From Algoriella xinjiangensis (GTDB taxonomy: Bacteria; Bacteroidota; Bacteroidia; Flavobacteriales; Weeksellaceae), in NCBI RefSeq assembly GCF_900115015.1, contig NZ_FOUZ01000006.1:62001-126000 (forward strand): DNA of 64,000 bases. The letters run 5' to 3'. The notes under the pieces are model-generated. The model was not told the DNA's origin, did not search any database, and saw only the letters and a program-made list of their open reading frames with translations. Shown piece after piece: positions 12,204 through 51,875 of the stretch. Every line of letters starts with the position of its first letter. Within the stretch, counting starts at the first letter, position 1. The translations under genes and the position numbers were made by a program.

Positions 12204-12205
12204 TG

Positions 12206-12213: not shown

Positions 12214-12233
12214 CTGAGAATTTATATTTTACA

Positions 12234-13922: not shown

Positions 13923-13937
13923 AAGATAATATAGACA

Positions 13938-14291: not shown

Positions 14292-14301
14292 TCTTATACA
14301 T

Positions 14302-14331
14302 AAAAAAAGCTTCAGATAAATCTGAAGCTTT
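14302..14331. terminator. Bidirectional terminator at the end of the efflux operon
   Basis: Eleven-bp perfect stem (14306-14316 with 14321-14331). The A run on its left gives a long U tract on the minus strand, so it mainly ends the efflux operon. Confidence 0.82.
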
Positions 14332-14352
14332 AATTCAATTAGATAAATAAGT

Positions 14353-15759: not shown

Positions 15760-15761
15760 GA

Positions 15762-37427: not shown

Positions 37428-37460
37428 TAGTTTTTATAAGAAATCCATTTAATCATTTCT
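37428..37460. repeat. Left att repeat with the displaced permease 3' end
   Basis: 33 bp matching 51877-51909 at 29 positions, including an 18-bp identical core (37443-37460). Read on the minus strand it encodes MIKWISYKN then TAA, against MIKWIGYKN then TAG at the right end. It is thus the old 3' end of the ABC permease gene. Confidence 0.9.
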
Positions 37461-37510
37461 ATACAAAAAACTATACTGTATATCAATTAGTTAGCTCCTT
37501 AATACATGCG

Positions 37511-37530
37511 AGGGGTATTCTCAGGGGTAT
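37511..37530 (+). repeat. Integrase arm-type repeats, left end
   Basis: Two direct copies of AGGGGTAT (37511 and 37523), 12 bases apart. The same pair at the same spacing is found at the right end. About 50 bases inside the att repeat, the place expected for integrase arm sites. Confidence 0.65.
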
Positions 37531-37607
37531 CAAGTTCTCAAAGTCAATCGAAACAAACATACTACTAATAATTTGGTTGGCACAACTTAAACTTGGTTTT
37601 ATTAGAT

Positions 37608-37823
37608 TTACAACTCAACAATTATCGTTTCTTGTTTGGTGTGATGAAAATAATGGTTGAATATATGTTCCGTTTTGATTTTCATATAACCTGTTGTTGT
37701 GCCATAACCTAAGTGGGTAGAGAAATAGGCAACATAATAAACTGCACCTATTGTAGCACAAGAAATATTTTGAATCAAACTTACAATTAAAGTTTGCCGT
37801 CTATAAAAAATGATGCAAATGCG
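37608..37823 (-). pseudogene. Open frame remnant near the left end
   Basis: A 71-codon open frame with no start codon at its beginning; the first methionine is in GYMKIKT, past the middle. The first half looks like a membrane helix (TLIVSLIQNISCATIGAVYY) and the tail reads YFHHTKQETIIVEL before TAA. The residue pattern looks protein-like, so it may be the 3' end of a truncated gene. I do not recognise the family. Otherwise the 370 bases between the att repeat and the AraC gene hold only the arm repeats. Confidence 0.3.
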
Positions 37824-37833
37824 TCAATCAAAG

Positions 37834-38640
37834 TTAGCTGTGGTTTTTAACTTCCGATGGGTTAATTTTAAATTCGGTTTTAAATGCTCGAGAGAAATGA
37901 GCCAAGCTTACAAAACCAATATCATAATAAACTTCAACGGGCTTCTTGTTTTGTTTAGTGATTAGAAAATGTGCTAAATCTAATCGCTTTTTTATGAGCC
38001 ATTTATTTGGTGTTACTTTAGAAATTTGTTGAAAATCTCTCTTAAAAGTTGAAATGCTTCGTCCTGTTAATTTTGCAAATTGTTCTATCGGAATATTGTG
38101 TGTGAAATTTCTATTCATATAAGCTTCTAAGTCAATCTTGAAGGCATCTTGAAAATTGAAAAGAATATTTTGCATTTGAGTTTGCTTAATCAAAATTTCT
38201 ATTAATTCGTTTGTTTTGATGTTTACCAAATTTTCTGTTAATGCATCTGGATTCTCAAAATAGGGAACAATAGAATTGAAGAAAGCCATCAAAAACGGGT
38301 CCTGAGGAAATATAAAATTAGGTTTTCCTGTATATTGTCCTTTTGGCAACATGTTGTTTTGTTTAGAAAAATTGTAAAGCGTTTCTTTGGCTAAAAAAAT
38401 ACTAATTGCTATAAATGGTTTATTATCTCGTGGTAGTTTTTGCGTTTTTACCAATTGATTTTTGGATATAAAACCTATTTCACCTGTATTATATTCGGTA
38501 GTTTCTGCTCCGTCATTAATTATCATTATTCCATTTAATACATAAGTTAAAGCAAAATCTTGAACAAATGGTTCAAAATCTTTTTTTGCTTCGCCTGTGC
38601 AAGAGAAAAGAATATTTAATTTGGTTCTGTCTTGAAGCAT
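37834..38640 (-). CDS. AraC-family transcriptional regulator
   Basis: A 268-residue regulator. The N-terminal 150 residues form a small cupin-like sensing domain with a cysteine near the start (LFSCTGEAKKD). The C-terminal 100 residues are the double helix-turn-helix: IPIEQFAKLTGRSISTFKRDF and VYYDIGFVSLAHFSRAFKTEFKINPSE. It is the last gene of a three-gene minus-strand cassette with a small membrane protein and an SDR, which it probably controls. Part of the accessory cargo of the element. Confidence 0.9.
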   Translation of the reverse strand: MLQDRTKLNILFSCTGEAKKDFEPFVQDFALTYVLNGIMIINDGAETTEYNTGEIGFISKNQLVKTQKLPRDNKPFIAISIFLAKETLYNFSKQNNMLPKGQYTGKPNFIFPQDPFLMAFFNSIVPYFENPDALTENLVNIKTNELIEILIKQTQMQNILFNFQDAFKIDLEAYMNRNFTHNIPIEQFAKLTGRSISTFKRDFQQISKVTPNKWLIKKRLDLAHFLITKQNKKPVEVYYDIGFVSLAHFSRAFKTEFKINPSEVKNHS

Positions 38641-38647
38641 TTTAAAT

Positions 38648-39139
38648 TTAAGATTTGAAGTTGATTAATTTTTCATAATAAATTGTCGCTCTTTCTTTTG
38701 AAAAGTAGTCAATTATTGCAAATGCACTTCCAAATAATATTAATGAAATGGCGATTGCTTGCCATTGTACATTTTTTACAAAATATAACAAGCCTAGTGC
38801 AACAGCAAAACAAACTAAACTAATGCCAATTGACATGGGATAAAGGTATTGGAAATCTTCAACTCGTTTTTTTTCTGCCTCAATAAATGCCACTTTATCT
38901 TTTGTGTATGTTGCTACAACTTCTGAAACTTTCTTTTGGTTCGACCTACTCATATTCGCTCCAATTGCAGTAAATATGCTACCAATTACAATCAAAGGAA
39001 TTAACAACGCTTTTGCCGTTGGGACGCTTCCGTAAAAGTAAAATAATAATCCTACGATAATGGTAATTACTCCAAATCCTAAAATAAATCTGGCTTCAAA
39101 TATTTCCCCAGTGTACCAAGTGAGTGTATTTTGTATCAT
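38648..39139 (-). CDS. Hypothetical four-helix membrane protein
   Basis: A 163-residue membrane protein with two pairs of hydrophobic helices (about 15-58 and 100-150) separated by a charged loop, SRSNQKKVSEVVATYTKDKVAFIEAEKKRVEDF. I do not know a named family. It lies between the SDR and AraC genes with short gaps, so it shares their transcript. Proteins of this kind accompany AraC/SDR cassettes in Bacteroidota accessory regions. Confidence 0.65.
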   Translation of the reverse strand: MIQNTLTWYTGEIFEARFILGFGVITIIVGLLFYFYGSVPTAKALLIPLIVIGSIFTAIGANMSRSNQKKVSEVVATYTKDKVAFIEAEKKRVEDFQYLYPMSIGISLVCFAVALGLLYFVKNVQWQAIAISLILFGSAFAIIDYFSKERATIYYEKLINFKS

Positions 39140-39207
39140 CTTTTTTATTTTAAAAAGGTAATGGCTACCTGAATTTCAGATAGCCAATTTACCTATATTT
39201 TTTTGAA

Positions 39208-39954
39208 TTATTTTGCGTTATAACCACCGTCAATATTTAAGATTGTTCCCGTCATAAATGTATTTTCATCCGAAGCTAAAAAATAAATTGCTTTAGCAAT
39301 ATCTTCCACTTCGCCCAATTTATTCATTGGATGTATTGAAGCGATGCTTTCTTCGGTGTACGTTCCAGCATCTAATGCACTTTGAAAAACGGAAGTTTTA
39401 ATCGCTCCTGGAGCAACAGCATTGATGCGAATTCCTTGCGTTGCATAATCAATAGCCGCACCTTTTGTTAATCCTACAACAGCATGTTTCGATGCGTTGT
39501 ACTGAGCAGTTGCATATAAACCATTGATGCCTGCAATTGAAGCCAAATTTACAACCGTTCCACCACCAGTTTTCAGCATTGCTTTGATGGCGTATTTCAT
39601 TCCATAATAAACACCCATAACATTGGTGTCAAGCATTTGTTTTAGATCATCAGAGTTTGTATCCGCTAATTCAGCACCGCCTAATGAAATACCAGAATTA
39701 TTTACTATAGAATCTAATTTTCCAAATTTTTCAACTGTTTTTGAAATCACAGATGCTACTTGTTCTTCATTTGTTACGTCTAAAGGGAAGAATGTAACCT
39801 CTAAACCATTGTGCTTAAATTCAGAAACTATTTCTGTTTCTTTTTTTGCGTCTCTACTTGTTACAACAACATTATAATCGTTTTTCGCGAAATGCAAAGC
39901 AGTTGCTTTACCAATTCCTGTAGTTCCGCCTGTTATAATTACTGTTTTATTCAT
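39208..39954 (-). CDS. Short-chain dehydrogenase/reductase
   Basis: A 248-residue classical SDR. TGGTTGIGKATALHFA binds the cofactor; the arginine after VVVTSRD suggests NADP(H). NNSGIS, the catalytic serine in VNLASIAG, and the tyrosine and lysine in YNASKHAVVG complete the site. It ends with the usual ILNIDGGYNAK. It reduces or oxidises an unknown alcohol or ketone. First gene of the AraC cassette with a clear promoter. Confidence 0.92.
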   Translation of the reverse strand: MNKTVIITGGTTGIGKATALHFAKNDYNVVVTSRDAKKETEIVSEFKHNGLEVTFFPLDVTNEEQVASVISKTVEKFGKLDSIVNNSGISLGGAELADTNSDDLKQMLDTNVMGVYYGMKYAIKAMLKTGGGTVVNLASIAGINGLYATAQYNASKHAVVGLTKGAAIDYATQGIRINAVAPGAIKTSVFQSALDAGTYTEESIASIHPMNKLGEVEDIAKAIYFLASDENTFMTGTILNIDGGYNAK

Positions 39955-39980
39955 TTGTTTTATTTTAATGATTTATACAG

Positions 39981-39988
39981 CAAAGATA
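39981..39988 (-). promoter_or_regulatory. -7 box of the SDR-AraC cassette
   Basis: TATCTTTG on the minus strand, an exact TAnnTTTG match 26 bases before the SDR ATG. Confidence 0.6.
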
Positions 39989-40066
39989 AATCGGCGTTAA
40001 GAATAGTATTTGACTCTAAGGTTCAATTTAATTGTCTGTTGAGATTGTTGTAGCAGATTTAAAAAA

Positions 40067-40122
40067 TGTATCAAAACATTAACTGTATCATTTTATATCT
40101 ATTTTAATTAAATAATGATACA
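40067..40122. promoter_or_regulatory. Repeat cluster upstream of the serine recombinase gene
   Basis: TGTATCA occurs at 40067 and 40084, and its complement at 40116. TGTATCATT (40084-40092) and AATGATACA (40114-40122) form a 9-bp perfect inverted repeat with a 21-bp spacer. Just upstream of the -7 box, it could be an operator or a recombination (res-like) site for the neighbouring recombinase. Confidence 0.45.
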
Positions 40123-40140
40123 ATATTTCGTATTATTTTA

Positions 40141-40148
40141 TATCTTTG
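40141..40148 (+). promoter_or_regulatory. -7 box of the serine recombinase gene
   Basis: TATCTTTG, exact TAnnTTTG, 19 bases before the ATG at 40167. Confidence 0.6.
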
Positions 40149-40166
40149 ATTTAAATTAATACACCT

Positions 40167-40796
40167 ATGAAACAAACTGCTGTTATTATCGCGCGATGTT
40201 CCACAAATGAGACAAAACAAGATGTTAGTCGTCAAATCAAGGATTTGATAGATAATTACGCTGGAATCTATGAAATTATACATACCTATAGCTACTATAA
40301 ATCTGGTCTTGACAATGATGCCGAGAATAAAGAAATCCTAAAATATGTAATTGAGAATAAGGTACAGAATGTTCTTGTTACAGAAGTTTCAAGAGTTTCT
40401 AGAAAAATCTCATCATTTTCTTTGTTTTTGGAAGCATGCAATGACGCATCAATTAATTTGATAATAGATAATTATAAGCTACATACCTTCATTAAAGGTA
40501 AAGAAAACACTATGGCGCAGGCAATGTTACAGATAGCTGCTGTTATGGCTAGAAACGAACTAGAATTGACGAAAGAGCGTTTGAATTCTGGAAGAAACAA
40601 GTACATTGCCGAAGGTGGAAAACTAGGTAGGAATGTCGGAACCAAGGAAAACAAGAACGATTTTTTGTCCAAATATCCTAAGGCAATCCGTTGTTTAAAA
40701 TCTAACAAATCTGTACGAGAAGTAATGAAGCTATGTGATCTAAGCTCTGGAACAGTGCAAAAAATTAAAAAGTATATAAATGAAAAAGAGGTTTAA
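40167..40796 (+). CDS. Serine recombinase (resolvase/invertase family)
   Basis: A 209-residue small serine recombinase. The catalytic serine is S12 in IIARCSTNE, preceded by R10; further active-site arginines lie in TEVSRVSRK. The long E-helix region (QAMLQIAAVMARNELELTKERLNSGRNKYIAEGGKLGR) and a C-terminal helix-turn-helix (KSVREVMKLCDLSSGTVQKIKKY) complete the family layout. It cuts and rejoins DNA at paired sites. Inside the element it could resolve dimers or mark a nested insertion of the SDR-AraC cassette. It is divergent from that cassette and convergent with the kinase-AAA operon. Confidence 0.9.
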   Translation: MKQTAVIIARCSTNETKQDVSRQIKDLIDNYAGIYEIIHTYSYYKSGLDNDAENKEILKYVIENKVQNVLVTEVSRVSRKISSFSLFLEACNDASINLIIDNYKLHTFIKGKENTMAQAMLQIAAVMARNELELTKERLNSGRNKYIAEGGKLGRNVGTKENKNDFLSKYPKAIRCLKSNKSVREVMKLCDLSSGTVQKIKKYINEKEV

Positions 40797-40815
40797 CAAA
40801 ATCTCTTTTTATATT
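40783..40815 (+). terminator. Terminator of the serine recombinase gene
   Basis: An eight-bp outer stem (40783-40790 with 40803-40810) followed by a T-rich tail; it includes the stop codon. Confidence 0.6.
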
Positions 40816-40853
40816 TTAATTCTATTCTCTAAAATTAATCACTAAATAATACT

Positions 40854-42605
40854 CTAAAAACCAATTTTTGGTTTATCTATGTTGTTGTTATTTTTTCCTT
40901 CCATTTTAGCTTTGACTATTAAGTAGCTGTTCAACTCCTGCAAAGAAATTGACGGTTTGTTGCTTCGGATTGTTTCCAGTACGATTGTTTTTGTAATTCT
41001 TAAATTGTCTTTTAATGCCTTTCTTGAAGCTTCATCACATAAGAATTTAATGTCGCTTGAAACATAGTTCTCTGTTGCCTTGGCTAATTCTTCGTAATTC
41101 AAACCGATTTCTGTCGGTCGCTTTTTTAAATACAACTCAAACATCAATTTACGAGCTTCAAAATCAGGAGGTGCCAAATAAAGGTGTTTGTCTAATCTTC
41201 CTGAACGTAAAATTGCAGGGTCAATAGCATTTGGTCTATTTGTGGCACCGATTATAAAAATTCCATCATCTCCACAATTATTCATTTGTGCTAAAAATTC
41301 ATTGACTGCACTTGTGTTCATATGGCTAATGTTGGATGTATCTCTATTCGGAACAAGTGCATCTAATTCATCGATTAAAATTATACTTGGTGCGTTTTGT
41401 TTTGCTTCATCAAACAAATTTTTGATATTTTCCTGCGAAGCATTTACAAATTTACTTTGAATGTCAGAAGGTTTTATTTGATAAAAATTAAACCCGATTT
41501 CTTCTGCCATTTTCTCTGCAAAAAATGTTTTTCCGCAACCTGGCGGACCATACAGCAACATTCCGTTTGGAATTGTTAAACCATATTCCGCATAACGGTC
41601 CTTTTCATTTAATGCGTCAATAACATCTAATTGAATAGTATTTTTCAATTCTTGCATTCCTGCAATGGAAGCAAATCCTTTACCTTTTTTATTTTCTTTG
41701 GATTGGATTTTAGCAACTTTTTCTTCTGGAATTGAAAGTTCAACTTCTAATTCTCCGTTCAATGTTTGGATAAATTCTTTTACAGATTTAAAACGGTGTT
41801 CTGCTTTTGGCTGTAATGCTTTACGAATAATATTTTGCGTTTGTTCGTCTATTTTATCCGAAAATTTCAAAGGCTTTTTTCTTTCGTCTAAAATAACTTC
41901 CTCTAATTGTATTTTATCTGATTTGTATTTTGAAATTTCTATAAAATAAGGCGACAAACCTGTCAATAAATGATAATACAACGCACCAACAGAATAAATA
42001 TCACTCTGAAATGAAAAGACTTTATTAAAAGTTTCATTGGCTGTGTAGAAAAAATTCAGTCCATCTTTCAAAAACTCTTTATTAGATTGTTGCAGATAAC
42101 GAGCATATCCAAAATCAATAATTTTTGAAATAGCAACATTACCTGACAAATCCAACATTACATTTTGGTTGGTAATATCGTTATGAATGATTTGCTTGTT
42201 GTGTAGATAATTCAAGCCGTTTAGAATACTCAGTATGATATTTTTTGCTTCATAAGAATTGAATGTGTTTTCACGTTTCATTTTATCCGTTAAAGTTTCT
42301 CCACTGATAAAATCCAACACTACAAAAGCCAATTTTTGGTTGTCAATTATAATATTTCCGCTATCGTTGTATTTAACCAAATTGGAATGTTTGATTTGTT
42401 TCAGCATTTCAATTTCCAGAATTTCTCCGCTTTCTGTAAACTGTGTTCGATGTAATTTAGCAAAGTCAAAAAGTTTGAGAAACTTAGCTTCATTCGCTTG
42501 ATTTTGTACACGATAAGTTTCGGCATAGCTTCCTTTTTTAAGAAAGAAGCTAACCGAATATTTATTATCAATGATTTGTCCTTTGGACAATATAGACTTA
42601 CTCAT
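40854..42605 (-). CDS. Protein kinase fused to a Cdc48/Vps4-like AAA+ ATPase
   Basis: A 583-residue fusion. Residues 12-285 are an eukaryotic-like Ser/Thr kinase: glycine loop KKGSYAETY, lysine K44, catalytic loop HNDITNQN (D143; the usual HRD arginine is Asn, so a non-RD kinase) and DFG at 164-166. Residues 310-560 are a single AAA+ domain: Walker A GPPGCGKT (353-360), Walker B ILIDELDA and the arginine-finger block ATNRPNAIDPAILRSGRLD. No membrane segment. It is the last gene of the Hsp70 operon and overlaps its neighbour by eight bases. The kinase may control the AAA+ unfoldase or the chaperones; a DnaK-ClpB style division of labour is plausible. Confidence 0.93.
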   Translation of the reverse strand: MSKSILSKGQIIDNKYSVSFFLKKGSYAETYRVQNQANEAKFLKLFDFAKLHRTQFTESGEILEIEMLKQIKHSNLVKYNDSGNIIIDNQKLAFVVLDFISGETLTDKMKRENTFNSYEAKNIILSILNGLNYLHNKQIIHNDITNQNVMLDLSGNVAISKIIDFGYARYLQQSNKEFLKDGLNFFYTANETFNKVFSFQSDIYSVGALYYHLLTGLSPYFIEISKYKSDKIQLEEVILDERKKPLKFSDKIDEQTQNIIRKALQPKAEHRFKSVKEFIQTLNGELEVELSIPEEKVAKIQSKENKKGKGFASIAGMQELKNTIQLDVIDALNEKDRYAEYGLTIPNGMLLYGPPGCGKTFFAEKMAEEIGFNFYQIKPSDIQSKFVNASQENIKNLFDEAKQNAPSIILIDELDALVPNRDTSNISHMNTSAVNEFLAQMNNCGDDGIFIIGATNRPNAIDPAILRSGRLDKHLYLAPPDFEARKLMFELYLKKRPTEIGLNYEELAKATENYVSSDIKFLCDEASRKALKDNLRITKTIVLETIRSNKPSISLQELNSYLIVKAKMEGKNNNNIDKPKIGF

Positions 42606-42891
42606 TTTTTTTATTTTTCACCAAACTTACCAATAATCCAACGCCAACAATCACATCTATAATATTCCACAATTCTCGACCTAATGCAATTTTAAAAAAC
42701 GGTTGAAATAATAATGCTAACGCTCCATAGATAAACATTTCAGTTTGTCGGCTTTTTTGATTAGCTTGATAGCACAACACTCCAAAACCAATTAACGCTA
42801 TAAAACGCACCAGTTGATAATAACCATAAGGCATATCCAAAAGACAACTAAACATTAAAATCGCTAATCCTATTTTGATTATTTTTTCCAT
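42598..42891 (-). CDS. Small membrane protein of the Hsp70 operon
   Basis: A 97-residue protein with about three hydrophobic helices (roughly 4-20, 25-40 and 65-90), resembling small DUF6804-like membrane proteins; that family link is weak. The ATG at 42891 lies one base after the TAG of the lipoprotein gene, and its stop overlaps the kinase-AAA start by eight bases, so translation is coupled on both sides. It may give the complex a membrane contact. An upstream ATG (42939) inside the previous gene is less likely. Confidence 0.7.
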   Translation of the reverse strand: MEKIIKIGLAILMFSCLLDMPYGYYQLVRFIALIGFGVLCYQANQKSRQTEMFIYGALALLFQPFFKIALGRELWNIIDVIVGVGLLVSLVKNKKNE

Positions 42892-42892
42892 T

Positions 42893-43567
42893 CTATAATG
42901 CTTCTTCTGGATCACTTGGCTGTGTACTGAAATTTCCATTATCCTGCATAATTAATTCATACGCTAAAATATTATTATAAAGTGATTGAGGTTCGTCTTT
43001 TCCAAATTCTTCACTTGAAATAAAACCACCTTGCATTTCACCATTTTTCATTTCTTTTATTGGACTCCAACCTTTTCCATAGTAGAAGAAAGCTTGGTAT
43101 ATTCCATTAGGAAAAGAAAATGTATAACTGTCACCAGCTTGAATAAATGCGTGTCTTACAACTTTGTCATTTTTTTTTATTGTAACCAATACATCCGAAT
43201 TGCTAGTTCTTACTTTTATTTGCGAACATCCATAATCATTACAAGAAGAGTTTCTTCCATAATATTTGGAATATGGAGTTGAGCCAGTTTGCAAAGAATT
43301 CGAAATATACCTATCGTAAATTTCTTGCTGTTTTCTATCTTTCTCTATTTGCGCCTCTCTTACAACACGCTCAGCCTCTGCTTGTTTTTCTTGCTGAATG
43401 CGGCCCTGTTCCACCCGAATAGTTTCAGATTTTTGTTCTTCTTGCTGTTTTTGATCGTATTCAATACGTTCTTTTTCTTCAATTGCGTCACGTGATTTTC
43501 TTACTTGTTCTGACTCACAAGAAGTCAAAAGTAAAATAATGAACACGTTAGTTAATAGTTTTTTCAT
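42893..43567 (-). CDS. Coiled-coil lipoprotein of the Hsp70 operon
   Basis: A 224-residue lipoprotein. The signal peptide ends in LLLTSC (cysteine 17). A Glu/Gln/Lys-rich coiled coil covers about residues 20-90. A globular C-terminal domain has strands such as SQIKVRTSNSDVLVTIKKNDKVVRHAFIQAGDSYTFSFPNGIYQAFFYYG; this reads like a small beta-sandwich. A cysteine pair lies in NSSCNDYGCS. It faces the periplasm, so the operon spans both sides of the inner membrane. I do not know a named family. Confidence 0.75.
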   Translation of the reverse strand: MKKLLTNVFIILLLTSCESEQVRKSRDAIEEKERIEYDQKQQEEQKSETIRVEQGRIQQEKQAEAERVVREAQIEKDRKQQEIYDRYISNSLQTGSTPYSKYYGRNSSCNDYGCSQIKVRTSNSDVLVTIKKNDKVVRHAFIQAGDSYTFSFPNGIYQAFFYYGKGWSPIKEMKNGEMQGGFISSEEFGKDEPQSLYNNILAYELIMQDNGNFSTQPSDPEEAL

Positions 43568-43577
43568 AATTTACAGT

Positions 43578-46100
43578 TTACCCAACCAAAACAGTATCAT
43601 CTCCGCTTGGTTTTTCTGTATCTGGTAATAAATTAATTAAGTCAATAACAATAGGATGTAAATCTTCAGTAGTTGGATTTTCTCCGATTTGTTGTAAACC
43701 ATCGTTTAGTAATTGTCTTGCTCGGTTACTGTCTTTCCAATGGTATGAACCAAAATTTTGATTGTGTTGTCTGATGAAATTAATCAATTGATATACTAAA
43801 GTCATTTGAAAAAATACAGAATGTATTTCTTCTGCTAATGCTTTACCTAATTTAATATCCTGAGTTTTCAAAACCTCTTCCAATTGATTTCGCAACTGAT
43901 TAACAACTTGTGTTGAACGTTCATTTCCTAAATCTTTATTAGCTTTTTCTAATCTGTAAAATTCTTCTTTTAGCTCTTCTTCTAATTTTGGCCATTCTGT
44001 GGTTTCGCTTAATTCATCAATGGTTTTAAGCGTTTTTCTAAGATTGGTTAAAACTTCTTGTTTACTATCAACATCATTTCTGTTGTTCTCAAATTTTCTT
44101 TCTAATTCAGTAATTTCAGTTTCAGCATTTTGAACTTTATCTTCATAAATTCCTTCGTCTTTCAGTTCTTTAATGCTTCCTTTTGCTTTACGAATTTCAT
44201 TGGAAAGCCAATTGGAATCAACTGAAGATATAGTTCTTTCAACAGTAGCTTCATAAGAAAAATCTAGGTAAGGAAAATAAGCAGTTACGGTAATTTGCTC
44301 TGATTTATCAAGATTTACCGTTAAATCTACATCGCTATTTTCGGGTAACAATGCAGGTAATTCTGCTCCGCTTATGACAATATCAGTAACGTGATTATTA
44401 TAAATAGCTCTTGTTCCTTCTGCCTCATGTTCTCCTTCGAAAATTGGAATTTTAATAAAATCCGATTCCATTCCAGGGCGAATTTGTTTTTGAGTTTTTA
44501 ATCCATTTCTTGTTCCAGTTGCTGGGATTGAAGTGTTTTTTTCTAATCCTTTAAGCGTTTCAAAAACAATTTTTCCTGTATCTCTTTTCTTAATTTCAAT
44601 TCCAAAATTATAGGCCAGCGTTGCACTTCCAATTTTTGAACCTTGGATTACATTAAATTCTTTTGGCTCACTCTCTAAAATGTTTCCTTTATCATCAAAC
44701 AATGTAATTTCAAAACTATTGGTTTTGCCTTCTAGTAATTGCGTTTCAATCACTTCTCCGATTCCATTGATCTCTACCTTTCCACTTGACCAAGCCTTAT
44801 CGCTTCTTGTAATTTCGGCAAGAACTTTATCTGGGATTTCTCCTTCAGTTTTATCTGCGAGAATTTTTAATGTAACAAATTCTTCCAATTCCACGGTTGA
44901 TGATTCATGACCGATTTCGATTTGAATCTTTGATTTATCTCTTGTTTGTTCTTTTATCTGCTCCGAAATTTCAACTGTAGAAGCGTATAAAGCTGCACCT
45001 TTTGAAACAACCGTCATTGGGTCAACACTTGTATCTGGTTGACAGATTTGTTGGTCCAACATTTTTCTTGCGACTGGAGAAAATGTTGGGCCGCCAACCA
45101 AGATGAGTGAATCTAGGGATGAACCTTTTAAATTTTTACGTTCTAAAAGTTTTTTACAAATATCAATGGCTTTCTGAAAAATAGGACCTAAAGCTCTTTC
45201 CATATCACTTTGGGTTACCGTAATATCTAATTCAAACTCTTCTCCATTATCGTCTTCTCCAGGAATATCTCCCAAATCCGACAAAATATTATGGGTGTCA
45301 TTAAAAGATAATTTTATTTTAGTTTCTTCTGCGTAAAACTTCATCGCATCACGAAGAATTTGTTTTTTGTTGTCATCTGCTAAAATGGAAGTTATCTCAT
45401 AATTTTCTTTGATATAAGGTAAAATAATCTCATCAACAATTGCTAAGTCCAGATTTTTCCCTCCAAGATAATTATCTCCTTCTGTATCTATCACATTCAT
45501 AATGCCGTCTTCTACTTTAAGAATAGCTGCATCAAAGGTTCCTCCTCCAAAATCGAAAACCAACCAAAAACCGTCTTTCTTCTTGTTCTCTAAACCATAA
45601 GCCATTGCAGCAGCAACTGGTTCTTGCAACAATTCTACATTATTAAAACCAGCTAATTTTGCAGCTTCTCTTGTAGCTTCTTTTTGATTATTGCCAAATG
45701 CAGCAGGAACGGTAATTACAACAGCATTCACATTTTCATCTTTAATAAAAGATTTTAAAGTTTTTATAACTTCAGCAGATAATTCTTCTGAGGTTAATTC
45801 TTTTCCCAAATTGGAACTAGAGTATTTTTTATCCGTTCCTATTGTTCTTTTGAACTCTATATAAGAATTGGAATCACTATCATCCCAATTTTTCATAGCA
45901 CTTAATTTATCCCGTTTTAGAGCATTATATGCACTATCACCAACTTGAATTGCTTGTTTCTTATTGATGAAAACAGAGGACGGCATTGTGTCTTTTAATG
46001 TATCCGTTTTTTTAATCGTAGCCTCGCCATTTTCTATTCTTGAAATAGCGGAATTGGTTGTTCCTAGGTCGATACCGTAATCTATTTTAGTTCTTGCCAT
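43578..46100 (-). CDS. Divergent Hsp70-family chaperone with enlarged C-terminal half
   Basis: An 840-residue Hsp70; DnaK has about 640. The nucleotide-binding domain (1 to about 400) is intact: phosphate loop 1 GIDLGTTNSAIS, TVPAAFGNNQKEATREAAKLAGF, phosphate loop 2 VFDFGGGTFDAAIL, and the adenosine block ILVGGPTFSPVARKML. The normal hydrophobic interdomain linker and DnaK-type substrate domain are not evident. Instead there are beta-rich segments (about 410-650) and a long charged helical region (650-800). The C-terminus ends DDTVLVG, without an EEVD-type tail. No signal peptide, so cytoplasmic. The genes before it encode putative J-like and GrpE-like partners. Confidence 0.9.
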   Translation of the reverse strand: MARTKIDYGIDLGTTNSAISRIENGEATIKKTDTLKDTMPSSVFINKKQAIQVGDSAYNALKRDKLSAMKNWDDSDSNSYIEFKRTIGTDKKYSSSNLGKELTSEELSAEVIKTLKSFIKDENVNAVVITVPAAFGNNQKEATREAAKLAGFNNVELLQEPVAAAMAYGLENKKKDGFWLVFDFGGGTFDAAILKVEDGIMNVIDTEGDNYLGGKNLDLAIVDEIILPYIKENYEITSILADDNKKQILRDAMKFYAEETKIKLSFNDTHNILSDLGDIPGEDDNGEEFELDITVTQSDMERALGPIFQKAIDICKKLLERKNLKGSSLDSLILVGGPTFSPVARKMLDQQICQPDTSVDPMTVVSKGAALYASTVEISEQIKEQTRDKSKIQIEIGHESSTVELEEFVTLKILADKTEGEIPDKVLAEITRSDKAWSSGKVEINGIGEVIETQLLEGKTNSFEITLFDDKGNILESEPKEFNVIQGSKIGSATLAYNFGIEIKKRDTGKIVFETLKGLEKNTSIPATGTRNGLKTQKQIRPGMESDFIKIPIFEGEHEAEGTRAIYNNHVTDIVISGAELPALLPENSDVDLTVNLDKSEQITVTAYFPYLDFSYEATVERTISSVDSNWLSNEIRKAKGSIKELKDEGIYEDKVQNAETEITELERKFENNRNDVDSKQEVLTNLRKTLKTIDELSETTEWPKLEEELKEEFYRLEKANKDLGNERSTQVVNQLRNQLEEVLKTQDIKLGKALAEEIHSVFFQMTLVYQLINFIRQHNQNFGSYHWKDSNRARQLLNDGLQQIGENPTTEDLHPIVIDLINLLPDTEKPSGDDTVLVG

Positions 46101-46111
46101 AGTTCTATTTT

Positions 46112-47017
46112 TTATTCTCCAACACTTACTTCAATTTGTGCAGATTGTATCATTTCATTTTTAAAATTAACTTGAGGTTTTATAATTCTGGTTATAATCT
46201 GTTTTCCTGCTCCCAAATCTTGACTTGGAATAAAATTGGCGATGACTTTCATTCCTTCATTGTATTCTTTTCCTAACATATCTACCAATTCATATCCATT
46301 GGAAGCGAAATTTTCCTGAATTCTTTTTACAGAGGCGGAAAGTTGTTTTAGTCCTTTTGTATTTGCGTCCATCTGTTGTAGATTTTTATGAATACGGATA
46401 ATCTCGTCAGCCACTTTTAAAGCCAAAGAATGGTCAATTTCAGTAGTTGGATTTGCAGAAACAATTTGTTTTTCTTCTTGTTTCAATTTCAACTGTGATT
46501 CCAAAACTTCCACCAATTTGCTATCTAATTTGATGCTTTCTTCTTCTAAAGATTTTTTGGTGTTTTTGATTTGAGTTTCTACATCGGTTTTGCTGGTTGC
46601 GATACGTTTGCCTAATAACCAATATAAGATACCACCTAAAAGTAATGTTGCTAATGTTACAATTATCCAATACAAACGGTTTGTACTAATGTCTTTATCT
46701 AACTTAGAAAAGCTATTTTTCGCAGTAGTTTCTGTTTGTTGGATTTTTGTTCCTAAATCATTAACAATTGTTTGAATGTTTTGAACATTTTTATTTGTTT
46801 CAATTTTCAGACTGTCGATTTGTCTATCTTGATTTTCTGTTTTTGCAGAAAGTTTTGCCAGTTCAGTTTTTTGCTGACTGATTATAGCTTGTTGATTGTT
46901 TAGTTTTTGGTTTAAGAAAACAATTTCTTGCTGTTGCTTTTGCAAGTCTGGATTTTTTTCTTGTGCAAAAATTATTGTTGTACAAAGAAGAATGGGTATG
47001 AGTATAGTTTTTTTCAT
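46112..47017 (-). CDS. Membrane-anchored coiled-coil protein with GrpE-like C-terminal domain
   Basis: A 301-residue protein. A signal peptide ends near residue 19 (IIFAQ). A periplasmic coiled coil covers 22-110, a transmembrane helix 114-136, and a second, cytoplasmic coiled coil about 140-238. The last 60 residues (NGYELVDMLGKEYNEGMKVIANF ... ITRIIKPQVNFKNEMIQSAQIEVSV) follow the pattern of the GrpE beta domain: G-x-E, D-x-G-x-x-(F/Y), then the strand pair ending in R-A-x-V-x-V. I infer a membrane-tethered nucleotide-exchange factor for the Hsp70 encoded 12 bases downstream. The membrane layout is clear; the GrpE link is pattern-based. Confidence 0.72.
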   Translation of the reverse strand: MKKTILIPILLCTTIIFAQEKNPDLQKQQQEIVFLNQKLNNQQAIISQQKTELAKLSAKTENQDRQIDSLKIETNKNVQNIQTIVNDLGTKIQQTETTAKNSFSKLDKDISTNRLYWIIVTLATLLLGGILYWLLGKRIATSKTDVETQIKNTKKSLEEESIKLDSKLVEVLESQLKLKQEEKQIVSANPTTEIDHSLALKVADEIIRIHKNLQQMDANTKGLKQLSASVKRIQENFASNGYELVDMLGKEYNEGMKVIANFIPSQDLGAGKQIITRIIKPQVNFKNEMIQSAQIEVSVGE

Positions 47018-47029
47018 TTATTCAATTAT

Positions 47030-48514
47030 TTAATTACACGCTTTTGATAAGATTATTAATAGAATTATACCACCGACCCAATATAACCAAGTTGGAATAC
47101 CTTCATTATTATTTGAATTACTTGTTGTTGATGTTGTTGGTCTACTTGTGGTTGTTTGAGTTGTGGAAACTGTTTTCCAATAGCAGATATATTTAATTTG
47201 ATTTTTTTGAGAATAATTCAATTTTCCAAGTATAAAATCAACCAAGGATTTATATTCTGTTATTTTGGTAAGTTTATCCGATTTTTTAATTTTTTCGATA
47301 CTTCTTAATGAAATAGTTTCTTTGATAAGTTCAATAACCTTATCCCAATCTAACGAATTAGCAATCATCTGATTTACTTTTGTCCAATTTATAGATTGGT
47401 TATAACCCATAGGCATTTCCAAAACTTCTTTAGTTATTTTTGCTTCATTTGTCTGAAAAGCTTGCTTAATGGATTTTAGAATATCTATTGCTTGATTAAG
47501 CTCTCTGTCTTTCATTCCTTCAAGCGAACTGATATTTTCTTTGGCTTTGCTTTTTGTTGTATCATTTACTGCTACGCTTTCAGCTAGTTTTGCCAGTTTC
47601 ATTGCTTCTTCGAGGTAATTATTATTTCTTTCAAGTTTCTGACTTTCATTAAAATAATCAATGGAACATTGCTGTAATTCTTTAGCAATATTATCTGCTA
47701 ACATTTTGTATTGCAGATTAGTATTCCCTACAATTGATTTTAAAAGTGTCAACTCGCTTTTAGTGTTGCTGTATAAATCTGTTCCATACTTATAAGCATT
47801 GCTTTTGTCCTTTGCACGTTTTTTAGTGCATTGTTCAATTTGAGTTTCAATTTTATGAATAGGTTCTTCAGTAAACTTTTTAGAAAGGTACTTTTGTGCA
47901 GTTCCATTGCAATTACTGAACAATTCTATTGTTTCAGCAGTTGAATACTTGTTTTTGAATTGCGATAGCAATTCATCAATCAATATTTCAATCTGTCTGT
48001 TTTTGTCTATAGAAAATGTTTCATCAGCAACCGTATGAACAAAGTCTTTAAAGTTCTCCGATACTATAAGTTTTATTTTGGCTGTAATTCCTTGTTTAAT
48101 TTCATCTTTGGAATTTTCCAATAAATAAAGTGTTCCAATATTGTTGAAAGCTGAAAAGTTTTTAGATGTAACTTCTTTTTCTTCCGTTAATTTGTACCAA
48201 ATCTCAATAGCCTTTTCTTTATTTCCTGATACTAAATGTTGGATTGCCGTATTGTCAACGGTGTTCAAGTTTGTAAACCAAAATAAAGAATGCACTACTT
48301 TATTCTGATTTTGTTCGATGTCAGAAAAAGCCTTGTCAATGATTGAATTAGTCCTTTGTATTGAATTCAGAAAAGAAAAATCATATTCTGAAGAAATTTC
48401 TTTACTTACTTTAACATACGCAGATATTCTACTTCTCCTACTTAGGACTTCTCTTGACGAAGCATTAGCTAAAATCCCGACAATCCTGTATGGATTATTT
48501 GTGATTGAATTCAT
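47030..48514 (-). CDS. Tail-anchored protein with degenerate J-like N-terminal domain
   Basis: A 494-residue protein, first in the Hsp70 operon. The N-terminus, NPYRIVGILANASSREVLSRRSRISAYVK, has the J-domain opening (N-Y-x-x-L-G-x-x-x-x-A-S-x-x-E-h), but the HPD motif needed for Hsp70 stimulation is absent. The following HSLFWFTN segment is part of the same domain. A long helical middle (about 90-440) resembles repeat or coiled-coil scaffolds. A Thr/Ser-rich linker leads to one C-terminal transmembrane helix (WLYWVGGIILLIILS, about 474-491), so the bulk is cytoplasmic. It probably docks the Hsp70 at the membrane. Confidence 0.7.
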   Translation of the reverse strand: MNSITNNPYRIVGILANASSREVLSRRSRISAYVKVSKEISSEYDFSFLNSIQRTNSIIDKAFSDIEQNQNKVVHSLFWFTNLNTVDNTAIQHLVSGNKEKAIEIWYKLTEEKEVTSKNFSAFNNIGTLYLLENSKDEIKQGITAKIKLIVSENFKDFVHTVADETFSIDKNRQIEILIDELLSQFKNKYSTAETIELFSNCNGTAQKYLSKKFTEEPIHKIETQIEQCTKKRAKDKSNAYKYGTDLYSNTKSELTLLKSIVGNTNLQYKMLADNIAKELQQCSIDYFNESQKLERNNNYLEEAMKLAKLAESVAVNDTTKSKAKENISSLEGMKDRELNQAIDILKSIKQAFQTNEAKITKEVLEMPMGYNQSINWTKVNQMIANSLDWDKVIELIKETISLRSIEKIKKSDKLTKITEYKSLVDFILGKLNYSQKNQIKYICYWKTVSTTQTTTSRPTTSTTSNSNNNEGIPTWLYWVGGIILLIILSKACN

Positions 48515-48561
48515 TAATTATTTTATGTTTTGCTAATCTAATACAAAAAATTATTGATAAA

Positions 48562-48577
48562 TTACGGTTTCCCGTAA
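48562..48577 (-). promoter_or_regulatory. Hairpin upstream of the Hsp70 operon
   Basis: TTACGG and CCGTAA pair perfectly around a four-base loop that reads GAAA on the operon strand, a stable GNRA tetraloop. It lies about 50 bases before the first ATG and could be an operator or an RNA structure. Confidence 0.4.
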
Positions 48578-48710
48578 ATCACATAATTTAGATGATTTTT
48601 TCCGTCAATAATATTTCAACATAACACCATATACCATTTGGTACAATGCTCTTCAGATTAAACTTTAGAAAGAATAAGGAGCAACAAATGATACATTAAC
48701 AGCTTATATT

Positions 48711-48735
48711 CTATTTTTACAACCCATAAAAATAG
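48711..48735. repeat. Nine-bp inverted repeat downstream of the HUH gene
   Basis: CTATTTTTA and TAAAAATAG with a seven-base spacer. The minus-strand copy is not followed by a U tract, so it is not a typical terminator. Hairpins of this kind are substrates for HUH enzymes, but the link is speculative. Confidence 0.35.
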
Positions 48736-48841
48736 ACAAAAAAAATATTAAACAATTAAAAAACAATAGTTTAGTAATTAAATTCAGTGTGTTTTACAAA
48801 AAAAAATAGAATACTATAGAAACACCTCATTTTGGCTATTA

Positions 48842-49468
48842 CTAATCGAGATAAACTAACCTTACTCCTCCTAGGCCATCATTTCCTTTTTTAAGGTATT
48901 GTTGATACGCACTATCTCTAAAAATTTTTTCGATAAGAACAGGTGAATAACTAGCATTATCAAACAGTCTTTCTGTATTAAAATTGAGCTCATCATAACC
49001 AAGATAATCATGCAGTAATTCTCTTAATTGAATCTTTATAACTTCAATTGCACCAGCACAACCTATGTGTATGTGATTGTAACCTTTTTCATCTTTTTCT
49101 ATCACATAATATAAACTGTGCCTATACTTTTGGCTAAGAAGATTAGCAATAGTAGAATAATATTTGCTATCATAATTTTCCTTAAAATTTATTGATATTG
49201 ATGTCTTGTATTTGATATCATAATTTTCTGCTCCATTAATCTCTAAACAATGTTCTTTGTTGCTTTTCTTTGCTTTTCGACTTCGATCTACAAGATGAAT
49301 TCTAGTACAGTCTACATGCCACTCTAAAACACCTCTTTTATTTTTTAGAAGCAATACTGCATCATTTCCTTCTTTATATATCTTTTTTATATTTCTTTTA
49401 AGCTGTTTCCTTGAAAGATTAATTATACCATTTTTTAGGTAATTAGTGATTGATTTATAATTATTCAT
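48842..49468 (-). CDS. HUH-type nuclease-like protein (Rep/relaxase-like)
   Basis: A 208-residue protein. A beta strand followed by GYNHIHIGCAG (H132, H134) is the metal-binding histidine-hydrophobic-histidine motif of HUH endonucleases. Candidate catalytic tyrosines follow at 174, 188 and 191. The first half is basic with a helical start. Such enzymes nick single-stranded DNA at hairpins in rolling-circle replication or transfer. With the integrase and an HTH protein it probably belongs to the mobility module. It is short, so it may be a minimal Rep or a relative that binds without cutting. Confidence 0.65.
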   Translation of the reverse strand: MNNYKSITNYLKNGIINLSRKQLKRNIKKIYKEGNDAVLLLKNKRGVLEWHVDCTRIHLVDRSRKAKKSNKEHCLEINGAENYDIKYKTSISINFKENYDSKYYSTIANLLSQKYRHSLYYVIEKDEKGYNHIHIGCAGAIEVIKIQLRELLHDYLGYDELNFNTERLFDNASYSPVLIEKIFRDSAYQQYLKKGNDGLGGVRLVYLD

Positions 49469-49724
49469 AATTGTCTAAACATATTGAGCATAATGCGCCC
49501 CTTTTATATATTTACCCATTATTTAAAAAAAGTGAATTTTTTTTGAAAAAAAAATATAAAAAAAATTCAAACAACTAATAAACAATACTTTATATAATAA
49601 TTTTTTTTAACATAATTTTGATCTTCTTTTAAAAATAGCTTTAATACCAAATATTATGTCCCCCTTAAATTTGAAAAATTTTAAAAAAAAATCTACCAAC
49701 CTGTATCGTTTATTAGAACAACAT

Positions 49725-49762
49725 AGGGAGGGAGGTAAAATTAAGAGGATACGGAGGGAGGG
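49725..49762 (+). repeat. Paired G-rich repeats
   Basis: GGAGGGAGG occurs at 49727 and 49753, 26 bases apart, inside a stretch that is otherwise almost pure A/T. Four GGG tracts could allow a quadruplex, or the repeats could be iterons. Confidence 0.5.
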
Positions 49763-49903
49763 TACTACAATTATCAATTTAAAAGAATAATGATTGAATT
49801 ATACTAAGTGTAGCATGTTGCAAATATAAGAATAGATTTTGACCTTCAATAAGTTACATGATTATTAATTAATAAACAAGTTTTATTTTGTTGATTTTTC
49901 GAC

Positions 49904-49911
49904 TATGTTTG
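49904..49911 (+). promoter_or_regulatory. -7 box of the excisionase-like gene
   Basis: TATGTTTG, exact TAnnTTTG, 67 bases before the ATG at 49979. Confidence 0.45.
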
Positions 49912-49978
49912 TAACATCAAGTTTGAAAGAATAAACAATAAAATGAAAGCAAAGTATTTAATGTTTAAAATTTGATAG

Positions 49979-50194
49979 ATGTCTCAAAAAGACAATAAAA
50001 GAGGTCAGTTAGTAGATTCAGCTTATATTTTAAAATACTTCAACATTACTCGTAATGCTCTTACGAGTTGGGACAAAAAAGGGTTTCCTGTTAACAAGTC
50101 ACCTATAACCAATAGGAAGTATTATTATTTAGAAGAATGTGAAGAGTTTCTAACAACTGGACAATTAAAAAGAAGTAAAAAAGCACCTAAATAA
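49979..50194 (+). CDS. Excisionase-like helix-turn-helix protein
   Basis: A 71-residue basic protein with a MerR/excisionase-type winged helix: VDSAYILKYFNITRNALTSWDKKGFPV, then the wing NRKYYYLEECEEFL. It ends in a basic tail (KRSKKAPK). It faces the integrase gene and shares a bidirectional terminator with it. Small proteins of this type act as recombination directionality factors or as integrase regulators. The palindrome in the integrase leader is a candidate target. Confidence 0.72.
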   Translation: MSQKDNKRGQLVDSAYILKYFNITRNALTSWDKKGFPVNKSPITNRKYYYLEECEEFLTTGQLKRSKKAPK

Positions 50195-50206
50195 GGTGCT
50201 TTTTTT
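50177..50206. terminator. Bidirectional terminator between the HTH and integrase genes
   Basis: Stem of about 9 bp flanked by a long A run and a T run, including the stop codon of the HTH gene. Confidence 0.85.
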
Positions 50207-50207
50207 A

Positions 50208-51647
50208 TCAATATTTATAAATAATTGAATCAAGATTTTTAGTTGAATTATAAAAAGTCTTAGCTCTATCAACTGCGCATGCATTGTCGTAAACATTAAA
50301 TGACGAAGAATTTTCTTCAAGCGTTTCGTGAGTCATACTTCTTACTACACTACTGTTTACACCAAGTTGAAGTAAATTTGTTACAAAAGTTTTGCGACAA
50401 TCATGTGAACTAACTACTTCAGCTACATTTCTTTCAGTTGTAACTATACCAATGATATGAACCCATTCATTTATAATCGTTTTGTCCTTAATTTTCATTT
50501 CTGTAAATAGGTCTCTTAGAGCTTTCGACAAATAATTTGTAAGAAAAACTTTCGGAAATGAATTATTGTTATTTCTATATATTTCCATTGCTGGAGCAAA
50601 AAGCGGCGAAATAATTTCAATTCCAGTTTTACTTGACTTATTTATTATTGCATAAAAAATACTCCCGTCTTTTGTAGTAATTTGCTTTACTTGTTCCTTG
50701 TACAATAAAGACACTGATTGATGTCTCATTCCTAAAGTACTCGCTAGTAATATATAGTCTCTTGCTCTAGCTGTTCGTTTAATTAATGGTCTGTGAAGAT
50801 AAATTTCTTCAAGTAAATCATTATTGTAATAAACTTTCTTTGCACTTTGAGCTTTCTTTCGTTTTAATCTTGAAGCTGCCAAATTTATTGATAATTCAAT
50901 TTCATCAGTATCTACTTTACGCAAAAATGATTTGAATTGAGCTAATAAATTATTGACAAAATTTACACTATAACCAAATTTATTACGTGATTTATTTTGA
51001 TTGGAGCAATAATTTTTCTTTATTTTTATTTCACCAATCATTATACCATTTGCAACATCAATTATCTCTAGCAGAGTCTTTACTTTTATATTTTCAATAT
51101 ATAATCTTTGCCCTTTATACTCTTGATAATTCAACAAATGATTATAAACATTTTGGTGAATTTTAATCGTTGACAATGCAAATTCTCTATTTCCATTTTT
51201 GTAGTCATCAACTTCTTTAGCTATCAAATCTTTCAAAAAGTCATCAAAAAAATGTTTACCATAATTTTCAAAATCTATTTTCTGGTATCCTTTTTTGGTG
51301 ATAATATTATCCTTAACAAGTAATTCAGTTAGCTTATTTTCAAACTCCAACTTACTAGGTAGCTTACCACTTACTTTGTAGTAGCTTGATAATACGTCAT
51401 GTTTTACAGTTATTTGATGTATTTTATCTCTAAGATGATTTGCTTCAAAACTACGTCCTTTAACTAAGTGATTTGGATCAAATGTATAATTACCAGCAGA
51501 TGTTCCGAAAGTTTCGGGTGTTACAGAAACACCCAAGGCTAATTTAATACGATCATTCTTTTTGGTTGGTGAAAATTCACCAGAGATCAATGCACTTACG
51601 GCACTTTTTTTTCCTAAAATTTTTTCTTTTAAAACGAAATTAATCAT
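50208..51647 (-). CDS. Tyrosine recombinase (integrase of the element)
   Basis: A 479-residue site-specific recombinase. The C-terminal catalytic domain has all residues: arginine in LGMRHQSVSLL, lysine in NKSSKTGIE, the HxxR of SHDCRKTFVTNLL, histidine in MTHETLEE, and the nucleophile tyrosine in FNVYDNA. The N-terminal 200 residues contain the arm-binding and SAM-like core-binding domains. The gene starts 229 bases inside the right att repeat, with the arm repeats in its upstream region. This is the usual layout for an integrase that controls its own site. Confidence 0.94.
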   Translation of the reverse strand: MINFVLKEKILGKKSAVSALISGEFSPTKKNDRIKLALGVSVTPETFGTSAGNYTFDPNHLVKGRSFEANHLRDKIHQITVKHDVLSSYYKVSGKLPSKLEFENKLTELLVKDNIITKKGYQKIDFENYGKHFFDDFLKDLIAKEVDDYKNGNREFALSTIKIHQNVYNHLLNYQEYKGQRLYIENIKVKTLLEIIDVANGIMIGEIKIKKNYCSNQNKSRNKFGYSVNFVNNLLAQFKSFLRKVDTDEIELSINLAASRLKRKKAQSAKKVYYNNDLLEEIYLHRPLIKRTARARDYILLASTLGMRHQSVSLLYKEQVKQITTKDGSIFYAIINKSSKTGIEIISPLFAPAMEIYRNNNNSFPKVFLTNYLSKALRDLFTEMKIKDKTIINEWVHIIGIVTTERNVAEVVSSHDCRKTFVTNLLQLGVNSSVVRSMTHETLEENSSSFNVYDNACAVDRAKTFYNSTKNLDSIIYKY

Positions 51648-51664
51648 ATTTTAATCATTTTTTA

Positions 51665-51702
51665 TTTTGGTGACTATAACTAATTATAGGATATCACCAA
51701 AA
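51665..51702. promoter_or_regulatory. Nested palindrome in the integrase leader
   Basis: TTTTGGTGA and TCACCAAAA form an outer inverted repeat; CTATAA and TTATAG form an inner one. It lies directly after the predicted transcript start of the integrase gene, so a bound protein or a folded RNA would limit integrase expression. Confidence 0.55.
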
Positions 51703-51710
51703 ATGTTAAA

Positions 51711-51718
51711 CAAATGTA
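51711..51718 (-). promoter_or_regulatory. -7 box of the integrase gene
   Basis: TACATTTG on the minus strand, exact TAnnTTTG, about 64 bases before the ATG. Confidence 0.5.
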
Positions 51719-51729
51719 ATATGACTTCG

Positions 51730-51818
51730 AGGGGTATGCAAAGGGGTATTCTGTAACTGTGCATAGTTATGCTAACATGTGCTAACTAATGATAAACAGT
51801 TCATTACAGAATACCCCT
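51730..51818. repeat. Integrase arm-type repeats, right end
   Basis: AGGGGTAT at 51730 and 51742 (direct, 12 apart) and inverted at 51811. The last two are part of a 15-bp perfect inverted repeat (51742-51756 with 51804-51818). GCTAAC also occurs twice between them (51771, 51781), and once inverted at 37490 near the left end. Confidence 0.65.
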
Positions 51819-51875
51819 TACAAATCATTTAAGTAATTATTAATTATTTATTCACTTAAATATCAGTACATTTAA

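Follow-up and report, generated by a model that had tools for sequence, protein, structure and literature searches.

A mobile operon of Algoriella xinjiangensis encoding a non-canonical Hsp70 with J-like, GrpE-like and AAA+ partners

The 64,000-nucleotide stretch of Algoriella xinjiangensis DNA analyzed here (the window) carries at 40854-48514, within an integrated element, an operon of six genes built around an Hsp70 that departs from DnaK. The central finding is that three parts of the canonical J-to-Hsp70 trigger, namely the His-Pro-Asp (HPD) motif of the J domain, an arginine of the Hsp70 and its linker, are altered together, as read from the aligned sequences. On balance, the operon appears to encode a mobile, membrane-tethered remodelling machine based on this non-canonical Hsp70, and phages or mobile DNA are the most likely targets of its use.

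The six genes all lie on the minus strand, as described in the initial annotation, and the open reading frames, when re-read from the window, confirm their limits and spacing: gaps of 12, 11 and 10 bases separate the genes for the J-like protein, the GrpE-like protein, the Hsp70 and a putative lipoprotein, followed by overlaps of 47 and 8 bases, leading into the genes for a DUF6804 protein and a kinase-AAA+ fusion. Pfam matches above cut-off are found for Hsp70 (6.7e-60), Pkinase (4.2e-36), AAA (1.2e-37) and DUF6804 (3e-37); the J-like, GrpE-like and lipoprotein sequences have none. The same annotation knew of no named system with this set, and indeed no curated family or paper naming it was found in the literature searched, which excluded preprints and most subscription journals. 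It had passed over the changes in the J trigger, the segment inserted into the Hsp70, the TerB-like gene that most relatives carry and the proteobacterial cousins.

The Hsp70 and its partner proteins

The Hsp70 (43578-46100, minus strand, 840 residues) is composed of a nucleotide-binding domain (NBD, residues ~1-377), an insert (~378-490), a segment resembling the beta part of a substrate-binding domain (SBD, ~494-620) and a C-terminal part, for which a profile search of the PDB reported no Hsp70 at E<=1. The NBD is a good Hsp70 domain (PF00012, 203 bits); against the DnaK equivalog model TIGR02350 the protein scores 218.5 bits, where the cut-off is 822.55. Residues of the ATPase are kept: Thr11 and the equivalents of Pro143 and Glu171 are each present in all of the 72 system Hsp70s compared, while Lys70, found in 11 of them in the multiple alignment, is misplaced there, a motif search locating KRxxG in 71. 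The position of DnaK Arg167, which is Arg in 25 DnaK sequences out of 25, is occupied in the 72 by Glu (66), Gln (5) or His (1). Between the motifs marking the end of the NBD and the start of the SBD lie 126-135 residues in 15 system Hsp70s and 25 in one DnaK, which indicates an insertion of about 106 residues at the linker. HPD, the third part, is found in none of the 69 J-like proteins of the family.

PMC7289447 calls the HPD motif of J domains invariant, and gives its contact with Arg167, at the interface of the linker, a key part in driving Hsp70; Arg167 can pair with an Asp of the linker and with an Asp of the SBD, and the Asp of HPD perturbs both pairs. A clade where all three trigger parts are altered, and where the ATPase residues and the GrpE-fold and J-like partners are kept, would show that an Hsp70 may be triggered in an alternative way, and lets one ask which part of the trigger is replaceable.

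The J-like protein (47030-48514, minus strand, 494 residues) features an N-terminal J-like segment, helical repeats and a hydrophobic tail at residues 471-491. In its predicted model (pLDDT 86.6), the N-terminal 90 residues follow the helix order of a J domain; beyond them, whole-model fold searches point to helical repeats. Most family members start with NPYR..G. Asn7, Pro8, Gly13, Trp79 and Asp87 are invariant in the 69 sequences, and Arg54 is present in 67. A tempting idea is that a salt bridge between Arg54 and Glu156 of the Hsp70 may stand in place of the contact between the HPD Asp and Arg167. When compared by hhalign, the N-terminal part scores 32% with the J domain of DnaJ (5.8% for the whole profile) and at most 1.8% with GrpE; a profile search of the PDB with the family gave nothing useful. 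The initial annotation of a tail-anchored J-like protein is only partly borne out: besides the general absence of HPD, 25 of the 69 proteins end in a hydrophobic tail and 23 in a CFI-box pattern, the other 21 having neither, so that a tail anchor is not a general feature. A separate match to the J domain (PF00226, 1.2e-9) is located at 22263-22430 of the window, about 25 kb from the operon, and similar weak matches are seen in other genomes of the genus.

A J-like protein devoid of HPD has a known counterpart in mitochondria, where Pam16 is part of a membrane Hsp70 motor, beside the HPD-bearing Pam18. The operon resembles Pam16-type degenerate J proteins in placing such a protein in an Hsp70 setting at the membrane, but differs from them, as it encodes no HPD partner.

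The GrpE-like protein (46112-47017, minus strand, 301 residues) contains a coiled coil, a transmembrane helix predicted at residues 114-137, GrpE-type helices and a six-strand domain. In its AlphaFold2 model, based on 76 sequences (pLDDT 83.9, pTM 0.49), six strands accompany three helices, one of them very long and two short. The first 12 Foldseek matches of the model are all GrpE or GrpEL1 (E from 1.4e-5 to 1e-2; the next match is at 0.17), with large root mean square deviations (rmsd, 17-28 A), probably because the long helix takes a different course. The GrpE family of Pfam is found in 21 of the 76 members at E<=1 (best 7.4e-7), the window protein not being listed; a PDB profile search of the family reported coiled coils only, among the 60 matches listed. 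All but one of the 76 proteins have a predicted transmembrane helix. On the strength of the Foldseek matches the modelled protein is assigned a GrpE fold, and is probably a remote relative of GrpE. The membrane protein with a GrpE-like end, as initially annotated, is supported by both fold and predicted helix, and a GrpE-fold, membrane-spanning partner and an AAA+ motor likewise sustain the earlier view of a parallel Hsp70 set.

The last gene (40854-42605, minus strand) encodes a Ser/Thr kinase domain fused to an AAA+ ATPase, both recognized by Pfam and by motif residues. The ATPase is of the FtsH/Cdc48 type, matching the FtsH model at 7e-55 and the CDC48 model at 8e-54, with scores far below both cut-offs (186.8 bits against 600 for the FtsH equivalog). 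All 68 family members have the Walker A Lys, the Walker B Glu and the sensor Asn; of two arginines that are candidates for the finger, one is kept in 67 members and the other in 68. No protease family appears among the 25 of 33 Pfam matches listed for the six proteins. The kinase is less constant: at the Asp of HxD, 37 of the 68 members have D, 20 E, 6 N, 4 G and 1 R, while 63 retain the Lys and 59 the Asp of DFG. Judging by these residues the kinase of the window, with Lys44, Asp143 and Asp164, looks active; those of many relatives do not.

DnaK, DnaJ and GrpE, working with ClpB, have in common with the operon an Hsp70 ATPase core, a GrpE fold, a J-like partner and an AAA+ motor. The operon is set apart from them by the loss of HPD and R167, by the ~106 extra linker residues, by the transmembrane helix of the GrpE-like protein and by an AAA+ protein which is not ClpB, having a single domain of the FtsH/Cdc48 type. 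The classic AAA ATPases FtsH and Cdc48 share the AAA+ module; the operon protein differs from them by its N-terminal kinase-type domain, in Bacteroidota, and by the absence of a protease domain among the matches listed.

Conservation in Bacteroidota and in proteobacterial cousins

Relatives were defined as the best 80 of 169 matches to the GrpE-like family in genome contigs, and the resulting counts favour close relatives. Gene order was evaluated for 56 of them, the other 24 being dropped for too little flanking sequence. The co-occurrence by which the initial annotation had proposed to check its operon is conserved for four core genes: in 52 of the 56 loci, J-like, GrpE-like, Hsp70 and kinase-AAA+ genes follow each other in this order on one strand, which is beyond chance. 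Of the four exceptions, two (L094, L100) contain the GrpE-like gene alone, while two (L102, L108) contain all four core genes and failed the rule on gaps and overlaps at the J-like gene, which overlaps. The pairwise distances of the four core proteins also correlate, with r between 0.66 and 0.88 over 61 loci, the best of 999 shuffles reaching 0.25. In an independent sample of the phylum, 7 of 395 genomes match, five with the core and two (G215 and G154) without it. Viral contigs searched for the Hsp70 and GrpE-like families contained no relatives of either; 45 of 50,697 phage records match the Hsp70, none across more than 80% of its length, and in the 15 of these 45 matches listed the similarity is restricted to the NBD.

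Accessory genes are more variable. Among the 50 relatives whose loci leave room for them, 43 have a TerB-like gene, 34 have DUF6804, 19 a member of the lipoprotein family and 4 a second Hsp70; the window copy belongs to the minority type without the TerB-like gene. The match of this fifth gene to TerB is weak, being just under the Pfam cut-off (4.1e-5) and at 0.0066 in the PDB profile search. The operon may thus be compared to the Ter systems of tellurite resistance and phage inhibition for the TerB-like gene that follows in most relatives; it is unlike them in the weakness of this match, in the lack of the gene in the window copy, and in showing no TerC, TerD or TerY family among the Pfam matches of the six genes. 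The second Hsp70-type gene lies near the first in some relatives (L029, at 11163-16966; L062, L078, L080, L091 and L114), and in all three full-length second copies examined the Arg167 position is taken by Glu.

Related sets are present on plasmids of Pseudomonas, Aminobacter, Vibrio, Shewanella, Aeromonas, Polaromonas and Sinorhizobium, and in one of 5,426 E. coli genomes; the latter copy eases tests in laboratory strains. In a tree, seven cousin Hsp70s group with the Bacteroidota ones on a branch supported 100/100 against DnaK. The insertion is common to the five that were aligned, in which the Arg167 position is V, A, A, A or S; it is A in the E. coli and Polaromonas proteins. A protein of about 117 residues, preceding the cousin Hsp70, corresponds to the C-terminal domain of the GrpE-like protein (hhalign 95.8%; other profiles at most 2.5%). 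The profile of the cousin J-like proteins scores 70.6% with the N-terminus of the Bacteroidota J-like family (other profiles at most 1.3%), a value which is partly chosen, as the set was picked by an NPF-type motif, with seven of ten sequences passing, three of them near-identical Sinorhizobium copies. A search with this profile also recovered the gene from Shewanella (1.3e-31) and Aeromonas (6.4e-33), and gave no match in the Pseudomonas locus. An AAA+ gene adjoins the Hsp70 in E. coli, Polaromonas, Aeromonas, Shewanella and Vibrio (E from 4e-53 to 8e-45, for the AAA part only); directly within the Pseudomonas, Aminobacter and Sinorhizobium sets such a gene was not seen. In the Vibrio and Shewanella proteins, the region preceding the AAA+ domain is not a kinase (0.09%). 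The J-like protein of Aminobacter (L022) carries a peptidoglycan-binding domain.

A module composed of Hsp70, GrpE-fold and J-like proteins and, in most carriers seen, an AAA+ ATPase is thus very probably real and co-inherited. A wider proposal may be put forward tentatively: a mobile Hsp70 clade, spanning at least two phyla, could have swapped the trigger formed by HPD, Arg167 and linker for an inserted domain, a membrane GrpE and a dedicated AAA+ ATPase, and could act as an envelope-anchored immune machine that recognizes and dismantles the proteins of phages or other invaders.

Genomic company and possible roles

The initial annotation had taken the location of the operon as a hint of phage defence or stress resistance, and defence genes are indeed its neighbours in several lineages. 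In E. coli HeN100 the set, of five genes (L238, 14630-21413), is accompanied by RdrB of RADAR, a DptF remnant and CbtA/YeeU, in Polaromonas by ZorA and Gabija (GajA/GajB), in S. meliloti by Gabija (GajA/GajB) and a type IIG enzyme; a weaker Gabija match is found in Aminobacter, a DndC-like neighbour in Pseudomonas, and the Haliscomenobacter locus adjoins BREX. The Shewanella and Aeromonas cousins ride a Tn7-like element. These cousin neighbourhoods were inspected singly, with no matched control. For Bacteroidota a control was used: 138 flanking proteins match 167 PADLOC models at 1e-15, against 41 for 138 control proteins. The flank models include, among the 25 listed, type I methyltransferases, mad2, mad3, GajA and SspB. 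Integrase and relaxase families are found in 4 and 4 of the 138 flank proteins, and are absent among the 25 control families listed.

The system-specific models of PADLOC-DB 2.0.0 do not assign the operon itself to a known anti-phage system: the kinase-AAA+ fusion matches mad6 (1.2e-39), PD-T4-6 (2.1e-36) and IetA (9.1e-35), by the kinase or the AAA part only, and for the other five proteins the best value is 0.0027. The closest published idea is that of the HSP70, GrpE and DnaJ proteins of GAP1-N2 neighbourhoods: Kaur et al. 2020 (PMC7159879) describe GAP1-N2 GTPase conflict systems with HSP70, with GrpE and with FNIII proteins that are fusions to DnaJ or TPR. The likeness lies in a predicted conflict neighbourhood with an Hsp70, a GrpE and a DnaJ or TPR partner; those systems are centred on the GTPase, and are described mainly from actinobacteria and firmicutes. 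The operon, in contrast, has an AAA+ ATPase, has lost HPD and shows no GTPase family among the Pfam matches of its six proteins. A host chaperone takes part in bacterial immunity in at least one precedent, the role of DnaJ in bNACHT25 sensing, as given in PMC12169576.

In the proposed machine, the GrpE-type domain would be cytoplasmic and the coiled coil periplasmic. A signal from the envelope or from a client may be sensed by the repeats of the J-like protein and the coiled coil of the GrpE-like one; the Hsp70 would capture the client by means of a new trigger of its own, probably the inserted segment, and the AAA+ motor would then unfold or extract it. Mobility and genomic company slightly favour a service in defence, use against phages or other mobile DNA being the most likely. 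If the signal from the neighbourhood is right, an Hsp70-AAA+ machine is to be added to bacterial immunity.

Several observations weigh against this reading. The kinship of the J-like protein to J domains is weakly indicated, by a weak profile match and by helix order, and no J domain is present among the 50 matches listed of the whole-model fold search, filled by helical repeats, an outcome that speaks neither for nor against a J domain. The assignment of the SBD is based on collinear motifs and on a weak hhalign match (3.5-7%). For the GrpE-like model, VIA ranks three-helix bundles of BAG domains first (Z 9.9, rmsd 2.5, 93 residues aligned), with GrpE lower (Z 8.3, rmsd 17.8, 169 aligned), and hhalign gives 0.3% against a profile of true GrpE, perhaps because this was built from a narrow set (20 loci of one order). 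As to defence, the control proteins also match such models, including, among the 25 listed, mad3 (in four), CRISPR-III, DrmB, SspA and DndA; PADLOC counts refer to redundant models and not to proteins, so that the excess in the flanks is moderate evidence. Since mobile islands collect defence genes generally, this company is only suggestive. Finally, no toxin or nuclease effector was recognized by Pfam among the six proteins.

Other roles may be considered. The operon could be a mobile stress-tolerance locus, providing spare proteostasis against heat, oxidants or envelope damage, with no part in phage defence. Its core parts are of the chaperone type, the lipoprotein and the membrane partners suggest an envelope connection, and there are precedents for mobile quality-control islands, which contain ClpG and small Hsps. 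This role is nevertheless unlikely: an altered canonical trigger would be unexpected in a spare DnaK, the Pfam matches listed for the six genes include no Clp or small Hsp family (the rest of the element was partly scanned), and defence genes neighbour the locus in several lineages. It is improbable, too, that the machine is a dedicated chaperone for the assembly or quality control of an envelope complex, such as a secretion, surface or peptidoglycan-linked one, carried as cargo. The transmembrane helix of nearly all GrpE-like proteins (75 of 76), the signal-peptide-like proteins encoded between Hsp70 and kinase-AAA+ genes and the peptidoglycan-binding domain of the Aminobacter J-like protein would all suit it; the sporadic, accessory occurrence (in 7 of the 395 genomes sampled from the phylum) and the spread on plasmids and Tn7-like elements are a poor fit with a fixed complex of the host.

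A client might be sought in the mobile element itself, whose replication, transfer or stability the chaperone would assist, as could be suggested by the few integrases and relaxases in the flanks and by the many plasmid-borne cousins. Yet the carriers, which include an integrase element, Tn7-like elements, IncP and rhizobial plasmids and a chromosomal island, have no common client apparent, and no relative was found in viral contigs; the hypothesis is very improbable. Least credible of all is the model of the initial annotation, a disaggregase switched by phosphorylation through the fused kinase. While the window kinase keeps the three residues Lys44, Asp143 and Asp164, 31 of the 68 family members lack the catalytic Asp, and the two proteobacterial cousins tested, from Vibrio and Shewanella, have no kinase domain before the AAA+ part; phosphorylation gating is accordingly not a core feature. 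A membrane-tethered remodelling machine, probably used in defence, is the reading retained.

The integrated element and its other genes

The element that carries the operon, already mentioned in the initial annotation, turned out to be larger than described there. It is bounded by direct repeats of 33 bp, identical at 29 positions, 18 of them consecutive: the left, attL-like one lies at 37428-37460 and the right, attR-like one at 51877-51909, bases 37443-37460 being identical to 51892-51909. The right repeat overlies the 3' end of an ABC-2 permease gene (51876-53195, PF12698), which marks the insertion point. A tyrosine recombinase gene (50208-51647, minus strand), identified as an integrase by matches to PF00589 (4e-4) and to the XerD model (9e-4), both below cut-off, lies 229 bases inward of the right repeat. 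In two of the five genomes of the same genus compared (G511, G495) the site is empty, and the flanks meet over a single copy of the repeat; in L213 and L215 the empty site holds one copy. Since the flanks of the window meet there at one point, sharing one repeat which the window has twice, the element is mapped at 37428-51909, with a length of about 14.5 kb. In the other three genomes, the same site holds about 0.35 kb (G478) or about 1.1 kb (G503) of other DNA, and in G490 the left flank was not detected beyond the repeat. The J-like protein is matched in two of 14 genomes of the genus, a patchy distribution.

The element also contains a serine recombinase gene of the resolvase type (40167-40796, plus strand; PF00239, 5.8e-16). 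Its left cargo, at 37834-39954, is composed of an AraC-type regulator, a small open reading frame and a short-chain dehydrogenase. The product of a gene at 48842-49468 bears a HIHIG motif, and is possibly a Rep protein or an HUH-type nuclease.

Two of the six operon genes are accessory. The putative lipoprotein (42893-43567, minus strand) belongs to a family where a lipobox-like pattern is found in 16 of 20 members; the small membrane protein (42598-42939, minus strand) is a DUF6804 member (PF20619), with three hydrophobic segments. The slot between the Hsp70 and kinase-AAA+ genes, occupied by the lipoprotein in the window, varies among relatives. In L049, L050, L051, L063, L065 and L079 it is filled by a family of 181 residues with a signal-peptide-like start, SH3-like by eye, for which the PDB profile search gave nothing useful; profile comparison reveals no kinship between the lipoprotein and these exported proteins (1.6%). 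In three other loci the slot contains proteins that appear, by eye, to be KilA-N-like (L048, 14181-15011; L080, 5826-6710; L114, 15746-16567).

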